DNA of 64,000 bases from positions 1 through 64,000 of the forward strand of contig NZ_QZWH01000052.1 of assembly GCF_003601925.1 (NCBI RefSeq), in the 5' to 3' direction. The translations under genes and the position numbers were made by a program. Under the pieces are notes generated by a model. That model was not told the DNA's origin. It worked only from the letters and a program-made list of their open reading frames with translations, and did no database searches. Positions 11,330 through 34,018 of this stretch are shown here, piece after piece; position 1 is the first letter of the stretch; each line of letters begins with the position of its first letter. Source of the stretch: Buttiauxella izardii (GTDB lineage: Bacteria; Pseudomonadota; Gammaproteobacteria; Enterobacterales; Enterobacteriaceae).

Positions 11330-11611
11330 ATGGCAAAAGAACAAACGGACCGTACTACATTAGATCTGTTCGCGGACGAGCGTCGCCCGGGGCGACCAAA
11401 AACAAATCCGCTAACGCGTGATGAGCAGTTGCGTATCAACAAACGCAATCAGCTTAAGCGCGATAAAGTACGCGGCCTGAAGCGAGTGGAGCTAAAGCTC
11501 AATAATGAGGCGGTAGATGCTCTCAACCAACTGGCTGAAGCGCGCAATATCAGTCGTAGTGAGCTGATTGAAGAGATACTACTCGCACAACTAAAGCAGC
11601 ATCTTAGTTAG
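11330..11611 (+). CDS. ybfE: YbfE, small ribbon-helix-helix-like protein (LexA regulon member in E. coli)
   Basis: 93 residues (97 in E. coli). A basic N-terminus (RRPGRPKTNPLTRDEQL) leads into a ribbon-helix-helix pattern VELKLNNEAVDAL...ISRSELIEEILLAQL, which suggests DNA binding; the function is unknown. In E. coli the gene is SOS-induced. The start is MAKEQTDR at 11330, aligning with E. coli; an in-frame start 81 bp upstream would add residues with no family similarity. It lies upstream of fldA in the same orientation. Confidence 0.9.
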   Translation: MAKEQTDRTTLDLFADERRPGRPKTNPLTRDEQLRINKRNQLKRDKVRGLKRVELKLNNEAVDALNQLAEARNISRSELIEEILLAQLKQHLS

Positions 11612-11671
11612 TTTTAGCGCTATGCCCTGTTATGCGATGTTGCAGTCTGTGCACACCGGGGCGATAGCAGT

Positions 11672-11700
11672 TTCCGCACCACGAAGTGTTCTGCTATGAT
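11672..11700 (+). promoter_or_regulatory. Candidate fldA promoter
   Basis: Extended -10 TGcTATGAT (hexamer 11695-11700) with a weak -35-like ttccgc at 11672, 17 bp apart. It lies 62 bp before the fldA ATG. Confidence 0.45.
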
Positions 11701-11762
11701 TGCCCTATCTGTGGCCAAATAGCAGCCACCATACCATTAAGTATCAAGAGGTTATTTTACTC

Positions 11763-12293
11763 ATGGCAATCGTAGGCATTTTTTTCGGCAGCGACACTGG
11801 TAACACCGAAAACATCGCGAAAATGATTCAAAAACAGCTCGGTAAGGAAGTTGCTGAGGTGCATGACATTGCTAAGAGCAGCAAAGAAGACCTGGAAGGC
11901 TTCGATATTCTGCTTCTCGGCATCCCAACGTGGTACTACGGCGAAGCACAGTGCGACTGGGATGATTTCTTCCCGACGCTGGAAGAAGTTGATTTTAATG
12001 GCAAACTGGTTGCGCTGTTCGGTTGTGGCGACCAGGAAGATTACGCTGAATACTTCTGTGACGCATTAGGCACAATCCGCGACATTATCGAACCACGCGG
12101 TGCGGCAATCGTCGGCCATTGGCCAACGGCGGGCTACCATTTTGAAGCCTCTAAAGGCCTGGCAGACGACGACCACTTTGTCGGCCTGGCAATTGATGAA
12201 GATCGCCAGCCAGAACTGACCGCTGAACGTGTTCAGAAATGGGTCAAACAAGTTTCTGATGAACTGAATCTGGCTGACATTATCAACGCCTGA
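11763..12293 (+). CDS. fldA: Flavodoxin 1
   Basis: 176 residues, the E. coli FldA length and nearly identical in sequence. It is the FMN-carrying electron donor for radical-SAM enzymes and for methionine synthase, IspG/IspH and biotin synthesis; LipA and MiaB in this window are radical-SAM clients of this type. The FMN phosphate loop GSDTGNTEN is at residues 9-17, and the W and Y isoalloxazine-stacking loops are at PTWYYGE (about 56) and [10 protein letters not shown] (about 90). RBS AGAGG precedes the ATG; in-frame codons upstream are non-coding. Confidence 0.97.
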
Positions 12294-12299
12294 TTCTTG

Positions 12300-12338
12300 A
12301 TGTGACGCAGCTGTTAAATGAGTTGCGTCACATTGATA
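12300..12338 (+). terminator. Strong hairpin after fldA
   Basis: Arms atgtgacgcagct (12300-12312) and agttgcgtcacat (12321-12333) form a 13-bp stem with one G-U pair and an 8-nt loop. The following tract is only moderately T-rich, so termination may be partial, allowing fldA-fur read-through as known in E. coli. Confidence 0.6.
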
Positions 12339-12370
12339 GTTATTTCCGATTAAAATAATTGCTACAAATT

Positions 12371-12399
12371 TTTAACTTTTCAGTTTGTCCCTGTACAAT
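12371..12399 (+). promoter_or_regulatory. Candidate distal fur promoter
   Basis: TTTAAC (12371) and TACAAT (12394) are separated by 17 bp. A transcript from here would include the upstream in-frame ATG at 12511. Confidence 0.4.
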
Positions 12400-12483
12400 G
12401 AACTCCTGATCAAATAGCTAGCAAGGCAAACAAATCGCGACTCAGCCGCCATTTTTTAGCTTGATTATGCATAATACTTGCGG

Positions 12484-12525
12484 TTCCCATTTAGAAGTGG
12501 CAGTTCTATAATGAGACGCATTCAT
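12484..12525 (+). promoter_or_regulatory. Proximal fur promoter with overlapping Fur-box-like sequence
   Basis: ttccca (12484) and a perfect TATAAT (12507-12512) with 17-bp spacing. The stretch 12507-12525 matches the 19-bp Fur box at about 12 of 19 positions, consistent with autoregulation known for E. coli fur. Transcription from here would start near 12519, after the upstream ATG at 12511. Confidence 0.5.
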
Positions 12526-12579
12526 CTTAACGCTCACCCTGAGTCCGAGCGAATCGTTAAGCAACAGGACAATTTCCGC
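12511..12579 (+). other. uof-like leader reading frame, in phase with fur
   Basis: The context gttctataATGagacgcatt resembles the start of uof (upstream of fur) in E. coli, a 28-codon leader whose translation is coupled to fur and repressed by the RyhB sRNA. As I recall, E. coli uof ends out of phase across the fur start codon. Here the 23 codons (MRRIHLNAHPES...) run in frame into the fur ATG with no stop, so translation from this ATG would give Fur with a 23-residue N-terminal extension. I looked in the two other phases: neither has a usable leader frame ending at the fur start. Confidence 0.5.
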
Positions 12580-13032
12580 ATGACTGACAATAATACCGCA
12601 TTAAAGAAGGCCGGCCTGAAAGTCACGCTTCCGCGATTAAAAATCCTTGAAGTGTTGCAGGGGCCGGTGAATCACCACGTCAGTGCGGAAGACCTCTATA
12701 AACGTCTGATTGATATGGGCGAAGAGATTGGTCTCGCCACCGTTTATCGTGTACTGAACCAGTTTGATGATGCAGGCATTGTGACTCGTCATAACTTCGA
12801 AGGCGGCAAATCCGTGTTCGAACTGACGCAGCAGCATCACCATGACCACCTGATTTGTCTGGACTGCGGCAAAGTTATTGAATTCAGTGATGATTCAATC
12901 GAAGCCCGCCAGCGCGAAATCGCATCACGTCATGGCATTCGTCTGACTAACCACAGCCTGTACCTTTACGGTCATTGCGCTGAAGGTGATTGCCGTACCG
13001 ACGAAAACGCACACGAAATCAGCGAAAGGTAA
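12580..13032 (+). CDS. fur: Fur, ferric uptake regulator
   Basis: 150 residues (148 in E. coli). It is the Fe2+-responsive repressor of iron acquisition genes. The winged-helix DNA-binding domain (about 1-83) is followed by the dimerisation domain with metal ligands HHHHDH near 86-91, the structural Zn pair CLDCGK near 93-96 and distal CAEGDC near 133-138. I choose the ATG at 12580 (MTDNNTALKK), which aligns exactly with E. coli; see the in-frame upstream ATG at 12511 for a possible longer form. The C-terminal tail differs from E. coli after DENAHE. Confidence 0.96.
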   Translation: MTDNNTALKKAGLKVTLPRLKILEVLQGPVNHHVSAEDLYKRLIDMGEEIGLATVYRVLNQFDDAGIVTRHNFEGGKSVFELTQQHHHDHLICLDCGKVIEFSDDSIEARQREIASRHGIRLTNHSLYLYGHCAEGDCRTDENAHEISER

Positions 13033-13068
13033 TCCGCATCTTTTGGCATCTGATTCAGGTGCCAGATG

Positions 13069-13105
13069 TAAAAAAAACCGGTGAAGAAGTTCACCGGTTT
13101 TTTTA
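13069..13105. terminator. Bidirectional terminator between fur and chiQ
   Basis: A-run, perfect 10-bp stem aaccggtgaa/ttcaccggtt with loop gaag, then a T-run; it can serve both converging units. Confidence 0.9.
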
Positions 13106-13122
13106 TTGCCTGAACACTAAGA

Positions 13123-13455
13123 CTATTTGTTGTTAGCACGAATCTCTTGCCAGATTTTATCGCACTTGGCTTTGACCGCCTGGTCATTACCCGTACGAGT
13201 TGCCTGGATGCAGTTCTGGTAATCCAGGGTGCGCACCGTTTCTTTCTTGGCAAATTCCTGGTGCTCTTTTTCCTGGCCTAACACATTTAACACACTCTGG
13301 CAGGCCTGGATTTTATCCGGGTTGCCTTCTGCGGTGTTAATACAAGCGCTATATGCTTGTTTTAATTTAGTATCTTCCGGAGCCGTTTTAGGTTGTTGTT
13401 GTGCACAGGCACTTAAACCTAACGCCATCACCGTAATCAGAACGACCTTTTTCAT
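13123..13455 (-). CDS. chiQ: ChiQ (YbfN) lipoprotein
   Basis: 110 residues with a lipoprotein signal MKKVVLITVMALGLSAC (lipobox LSAC, Cys17). The mature part is a small helical domain with two Cys pairs (ACINTAEG, QACQSV, NCIQA, KCDKI). It is the conserved partner gene immediately downstream of chiP, co-transcribed with it in E. coli and Salmonella; the biochemical role is unknown. Position, length and orientation match. RBS AAGGAT precedes the ATG. Confidence 0.85.
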   Translation of the reverse strand: MKKVVLITVMALGLSACAQQQPKTAPEDTKLKQAYSACINTAEGNPDKIQACQSVLNVLGQEKEHQEFAKKETVRTLDYQNCIQATRTGNDQAVKAKCDKIWQEIRANNK

Positions 13456-20383: not shown

Positions 20384-20392
20384 ATACTAACT

Positions 20393-20453
20393 TATACCCT
20401 AAATAATTCGAGTTGCAGCCAACACCCCTGCAACTTGAAGTATGACGGGTATA
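20393..20453 (+). repeat. Short ERIC element with a 66-bp internal deletion
   Basis: 61 bp bounded by tataccc/gggtata inverted ends. It equals the 127-bp copy at 33843-33969 minus exactly 66 bp, the deletion ends falling on a repeated agcca (33867 and 33933 in the full copy). It fills most of the 82-bp nagB-nagA spacer and ends directly before the nagA ribosome binding site. Confidence 0.88.
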
Positions 20454-33842: not shown

Positions 33843-33969
33843 TATACCTGTTAGCATTCGAGTTGCAGCCAGGCGGCAAAAGAGTGAATCCCCAGGAGCT
33901 TACTAAAGTAAGTGACTGGGGTGAACGAGAGTAGCCAACACCCCTGCGGCTCGAAGGATGACAGGTAAA
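33843..33969 (+). repeat. Full-length ERIC element (127 bp)
   Basis: It contains the ERIC hallmark sequences gtgaatccccaggagctta and agtaagtgactggggtgaac, and inverted ends tacctgt/acaggta with a longer imperfect arm (attcgagttgcag/ctgcggctcgaag). The length is the canonical 127 bp. It sits 49 bp before the gltI ATG, in the same orientation as the gene. Confidence 0.93.
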
Positions 33970-34018
33970 AAATACATCAGGTACCAATGCCCTGTGGCAT
34001 TAAGAAAAGGAGTGGGTA

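Follow-up and report, generated by a model that had tools for sequence, protein, structure and literature searches.

In Escherichia coli, the frame uof ends over the start of fur and translational coupling of the two has been reported, and reviews, in the portions of their text available, present this coupling as a feature of iron control (PMC11550727, PMC12683245). The fur leader of Buttiauxella izardii raises the question of what such a frame means when it has no stop of its own and reads straight into fur. The window analyzed here is the whole stretch of 64,000 nucleotides (contig NZ_QZWH01000052.1, positions 1 to 64,000, forward strand) from a genome of 4.77 Mb in 91 contigs, and its gene names were taken from a comparison of its open reading frames with the annotation of E. 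coli (locus L003). The initial annotation of the window had noticed a uof-like start after gttctata, followed by 23 stop-free codons into the fur ATG, and had offered two readings, namely that promoter choice sets the N-terminus of Fur, or that uof function is lost here. The features on which the argument depends are the following, in window coordinates:

12372-12399, + strand: distal (uof) promoter-like site, TTAACT-16-TACAAT, 9/12 in a consensus scan
12484-12512, + strand: proximal fur promoter-like site, TTCCCA-17-TATAAT, 10/12 in the same kind of scan
12507-12525, + strand: stretch resembling a Fur box, 12/19 against the consensus, sharing positions with both the -10 and the ATG
12511-12579, + strand: uof-homologous frame, 23 codons without a stop, in phase with fur
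12531-12551, + strand: leader hairpin, CGCTC / GAGCG with an 11-nt loop, arms co-varying between genera
12565-12570, + strand: Shine-Dalgarno-like CAGGAC of fur, from the duplex with the anti-Shine-Dalgarno (anti-SD) sequence
12580-13032, + strand: fur, 150 aa

The frame was confirmed as described. The ATG at 12511-12513, preceded by gttctata, gives MRRIHLNAHPESERIVKQQDNFR with its 22 following sense codons in the Buttiauxella window, and the distance to the fur ATG (12580-12511 = 69 nt = 23 codons) is stop-free and in phase. A pairwise leader alignment places this ATG opposite that of E. coli uof, which is annotated in RefSeq (WP_001406816.1) at L003:978-1064 with 28 codons, overlapping fur (start 1057). 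As the initial annotation had stated, the E. coli frame ends out of phase over the fur start: its ATG lies 79 nt before fur in phase +1, and it terminates in the TGA of fur's ATGACTGA. The two leaders are alike in the aligned ATG within TTCTATAATG, in the gene order fldA-leader-fur-chiQ, in a distal TACAAT (12394-12399 in the window), and in a proximal TATAAT (12507-12512), which contributes the AT of ATG 12511, the G after this -10 completing the start codon. In addition, CCTGTACAATG of the distal promoter-like site is matched letter for letter by the E. coli leader in the alignment, and the Fur-box-like stretch of that leader scores 16/19 against the same consensus. Unlike its E. coli counterpart, the window frame spans 69 rather than 79 nt, is in phase, and lacks its own stop; the window leader is 10 nt shorter, and it is this mid-leader gap that brings the frame into phase with fur. 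With no stop before an in-phase fur, the frame cannot support coupling by stop and restart. Further upstream, 3' of fldA, a stem-loop of 16 pairs followed by a T-rich tail was seen at 12297-12336, the arms of which vary among Buttiauxella and by eye look largely still paired.

According to the available text of PMC6191717, fur is transcribed from Puof and Pfur, with Pfur located inside uof, and RyhB reduces the Pfur transcript, not the Puof transcript. Two fur start sites and binding sites within uof are drawn for E. coli in the accessible part of PMC7867234, which also describes Yersinia enterocolitica as being without uof. Codon 6 of E. coli uof is reported, in the portions available, as a UCA read by a methylthiolated, MiaB-dependent tRNA (PMC7466049, PMC11448259), and counting from the aligned ATG in L003 gave TCA, in agreement with PMC7466049 as far as its text was available. 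TCA is found at this position in 23/134 genomes, a count that omits one genome with TATAATG 105 nt away, and the window carries CTT. With respect to uof-type coupling, the window has the homologous start codon, and has neither an out-of-phase end over the fur start nor UCA at codon 6. Coupling of an upstream frame to the gene of a regulator is also known from the PhrS-controlled uof-pqsR of Pseudomonas aeruginosa (PMC8395346, in the part available), which involves another gene and another small RNA, and for which no homology is claimed here.

To place the window among its relatives, fur leaders were compared in 156 genomes from 55 genera, comprising 150 Fur matches listed out of 275 matching genomes (392 searched) and six further Buttiauxella. 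TATAATG, matched exactly and no more than 112 nt from fur, was present in 135 of the 156 genomes (46 genera), while 19 had a changed -10 or ATG and two had neither. Among the 135, the frame was in phase +1 and open to fur in 49 genomes and stopped earlier in 13; phase +2 was open in 18 and stopped earlier in 11; and phase 0 carried a stop before fur in 30 and was fused in 14. Where fur begins with ATGACTGA, any open frame in a non-zero phase must stop over its start. Out-of-phase frames were stop-free up to fur in 67/91 genomes, so uof may be functional in E. coli-like lineages. Averaged over 45 genera, the stop-free fraction was 0.52 for the uof frame vs 0.35 for frame 2, frame 1 being trivially closed by the TGA within ATGA; this mild excess could mean function in some lineages. 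TATAATT, without an ATG, was observed at L072, L075 (Trabulsiella odontotermitis), L211, L212, L215, L224, L227 and L228, indicating that the promoter can be conserved without a uof start.

The phase of the frame proved to be labile. More than one phase occurred within 13 of the 32 genera having two or more ATG-bearing genomes. A phase-0 leader was found in 18/46 ATG-bearing genera, stop-free in three of these 18, and a single open frame of 23 codons is by itself not surprising against chance. At fur-phase codon -21, the 156 genomes carried TAG (78), AAG (71), ACG (5) or CTG (2); TAG blocks an N-terminal extension at this point, and Buttiauxella has AAG there. Fused frames were restricted to 14/156 genomes in three genera (11/12 Buttiauxella, 2/5 of genus g65 and 1/5 of genus g62), each of which also contained another phase; the five g65 genomes comprised two fused, one with a stop and two out of phase. 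Pairs of different length within a genus, inspected by eye, had the gap in or beside the hairpin loop in g62, g41, g144, g140, g74 and g72, and elsewhere or unclear in g1, g65, g2, g106, g18, g31 and g146. For names only, 80 named loci chosen by similarity to the fused protein were consulted, the nearest being B. noackiae, B. agrestis, B. massiliensis, B. brennerae and B. warmboldiae. Like the window, one locus each of Salmonella enterica subsp. arizonae (L097) and diarizonae (L108), of Klebsiella pneumoniae, K. oxytoca and K. michiganensis (L087, L066 and L067 in the genus) and of Citrobacter sedlakii was in phase 0, at 78 or 81 nt. Unlike the window, these frames stop after 16 codons (Salmonella, C. 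sedlakii), seven (K. pneumoniae) or 14 (K. oxytoca, K. michiganensis), which precludes fusion, and in the Salmonella and Klebsiella loci the closed phase-0 frame means that the E. coli uof-fur overlap is absent.

We consider it hardly credible that the fusion arose through faulty assembly, or that it is a passing accident confined to a single strain. A single-base indel does switch the phase within the genus, as this reading would have it, but the 69-nt spacing with in-phase fusion was found in 11 of 12 Buttiauxella genomes, the window's included, and the spacing recurs in six named Buttiauxella loci (one labelled unverified, and the two sets possibly overlapping), in separate assemblies. The remaining genome, G396, has a 1-nt deletion and a 23-codon frame that is out of phase and stops over the fur start; it is identical to Buttiauxella sp. 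B2 (L048) over 1800/1800 bases compared, and the two are probably the same genome. Separately, the Buttiauxella genome G374 (L009) was found to carry 126 extra nt in its fur leader, between the distal and proximal promoters. This insert is a repeat to which the window segments 33856-33970 and 3-80 (78% identity) are related; another, apparently shortened copy lies at 20391-20453, between open reading frames that we read as nagB-like and nagA-like.

The proposal that distal transcripts yield a 173-residue Fur from ATG 12511, and proximal transcripts the 150-residue form, so that promoter choice sets the N-terminus, agrees with the arrangement of promoters and ATG, since ATG 12511 would be present only on transcripts that begin upstream of the proximal promoter. 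The frame kept open in 11 of the 12 congeners, and similar 66-nt in-phase frames in Dryocola boscaweniae, Cedecea colo and Enterobacter sp. R1(2018), also speak for it. The pattern of substitution, however, does not. Across the 11 in-phase leaders, 3/69 sites vary, with no synonymous and three non-synonymous changes (E11D, and I15 to F or S), so that the extension tolerates isoleucine-to-serine and isoleucine-to-phenylalanine changes. In fur itself, 98/450 sites are variable across the 12 Buttiauxella genomes, 83 of them at the 150 third positions, and 78 codons vary synonymously only, with seven altering the amino acid. Variable third positions thus number 1/23 in the leader (11 genomes) vs 83/150 in fur (12 genomes; Fisher p 1.7e-6), and zero synonymous change in 22 degenerate leader codons has a probability of about 1e-7 at 78/150 per codon, although the leader test rests on three variable sites and leaves room for some peptide being made. 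This suggests that constraint on the Buttiauxella leader acts on nucleotides and not visibly on the peptide, and where the leader is conserved as nucleotides, a conserved peptide says nothing for its translation. Nor did codon-position entropy in the middle stretch reveal a third-position excess pointing to a conserved peptide, either in the 79-nt group (24 distinct leaders; 0.70/0.43/0.71) or in the 82-nt group (18 distinct leaders; 1.00/1.14/1.02).

Sister genomes had been proposed as a check on the extension, through frame-breaking indels and loss of the start codon. The frame-breaking deletion was found in one congener, whereas the ATG itself is retained across the genus, and this conservation is no argument for translation because TATAATG doubles as the proximal -10. 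The ribosome site at ATG 12511 is moreover weaker than that of fur, with anti-SD duplexes of -2.4 vs -4.0 kcal/mol at the fur ATG. Across 134 genomes, again omitting the one with the distant TATAATG, the mean score at the uof-type ATG was -2.61 vs -0.34 at 780 random upstream positions; taken with the frame kept in nearly all Buttiauxella, this makes some initiation at this ATG possible. Distal-promoter transcripts could yield a longer Fur, for which the sequences carry no apparent sign of selection. With the non-synonymous sites, the frameshift in one congener, and the stops and differing phases that accompany the fused frames of g65 and g62, a regulated isoform appears unlikely, and of the two initial readings the loss of uof function is the better supported. 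We favor the reading that the stretch is an ordinary fur leader, in which the E. coli-type uof-fur overlap is absent in Buttiauxella, probably through indel drift, and synthesis of Fur would begin mainly at the fur ATG itself. The leader nucleotides would be constrained by the proximal promoter, the overlapping Fur-box-like site, the short hairpin and the fur ribosome site. As far as promoter use, translation starts and relative amounts can be inferred, ATG 12580 would account for most Fur, and a 173-residue form, if distal-promoter transcripts give one, would be a minor by-product.

A further alternative retains uof-type control in the fused form, with RyhB pairing to the leader, blocking initiation at 12511, and thereby lowering the amount of long Fur in iron starvation. 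RyhB scored above its family cut-off in 12/12 Buttiauxella genomes, the window's own included, and its pairing core is identical in all 12 sequences. The pairing check suggested for 12495-12515, carried out around 12476-12525, did not lend support: duplexes of RyhB with five distinct Buttiauxella leader segments were no better than with shuffles (p 0.34-0.87), in a test that is weak since the same segment of the E. coli leader likewise gave p 0.68. The GAGCAA match to RyhB, which in the E. coli leader lies inside the uof codons, is absent from the Buttiauxella leaders, and the longest match in four of them is AAGCAA beside the fur Shine-Dalgarno site; Watson-Crick runs of six or more with RyhB arise in 50/156 shuffles. 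The nucleotides directly before the uof-type ATG also differ between Buttiauxella species. Judged from these sequences, RyhB control through the E. coli geometry appears unlikely in Buttiauxella, and its proposed fused form is very improbable.

The more interesting by-product of the comparison is not the fusion but the co-varying hairpin. Its arms are CGCTC/GAGCG in the window, TCACTTC/GAAGTGA in Escherichia-type leaders, and ACTTCC/GGAAGT, TCGCTCC/GGAGCGA and others elsewhere, mostly at a similar distance from fur. RNAalifold on a plain MAFFT alignment of 101 sequences returned only three pairs near the Shine-Dalgarno site and no hairpin. Since MAFFT does not put the arms in the same columns, covariation was assessed by swapping the 5' and 3' leader halves between genera in 300 exchanges and recording the best stem score. 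For 55 genera, native leaders scored about 12.4 vs 9.6 after swapping (sd 0.53-0.55) with the split at -38 or -40, where 0/300 exchanges reached the lowest native value, and 1/300 did so with the split at -34. In 38 genera, grouped as Escherichia-, Enterobacter-, Klebsiella-, Salmonella- and Buttiauxella-like from the resemblance of their leaders to those of named loci, native arms scored 15.11 vs 12.0 (sd 0.53), with 0/300 reaching the native mean; the 11 of these without a CTTC arm gave 12.93 vs 9.83 (1/300). The same test found no covariation in three control stretches, nor in 17 more distant genera (native 6.23 vs 7.58 swapped, 277/300 as high or higher), which were set apart as Serratia/Yersinia/Erwinia-like under a label guessed from their leaders and by a split chosen after the hairpin list had been seen.

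Folding energies speak against the hairpin. The window leader folds no better than its shuffles (z -0.13 for the proximal and -0.12 for the distal transcript; z -1.22 for the E. coli leader), and single hairpins are often no better than shuffles, that of the window having p 0.14. A search of window positions 11600-13200 against Rfam release 15 gave no match at 12371-12600, and two matches up to an E value of 1 at 13041-13112. We found no description of the hairpin or of a uof-fur fusion in the literature searched, the reach of which did not extend to the primary uof paper, reportedly that of Vecerek et al. 2007, so the hairpin may already have been described in E. coli. It is quite possible, if somewhat short of probable, that the conserved element before fur in the five groups of bacteria named above is this short hairpin just upstream of the fur ribosome site, unmatched by Rfam in the window, rather than a uof peptide; that indels, several of them in the loop, make the uof frame switch among an overlapping, a truncated and a fused form; and that uof-fur coupling as in E. 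coli is the variant of one lineage.

The uof-fur overlap geometry is not general even within the family, being absent in 11/12 Buttiauxella and in the named Salmonella and Klebsiella loci, so the frame should be checked first wherever RyhB-uof-fur control is to be extrapolated from E. coli. The hairpin, for its part, offers a testable candidate for the role of the fur leader.
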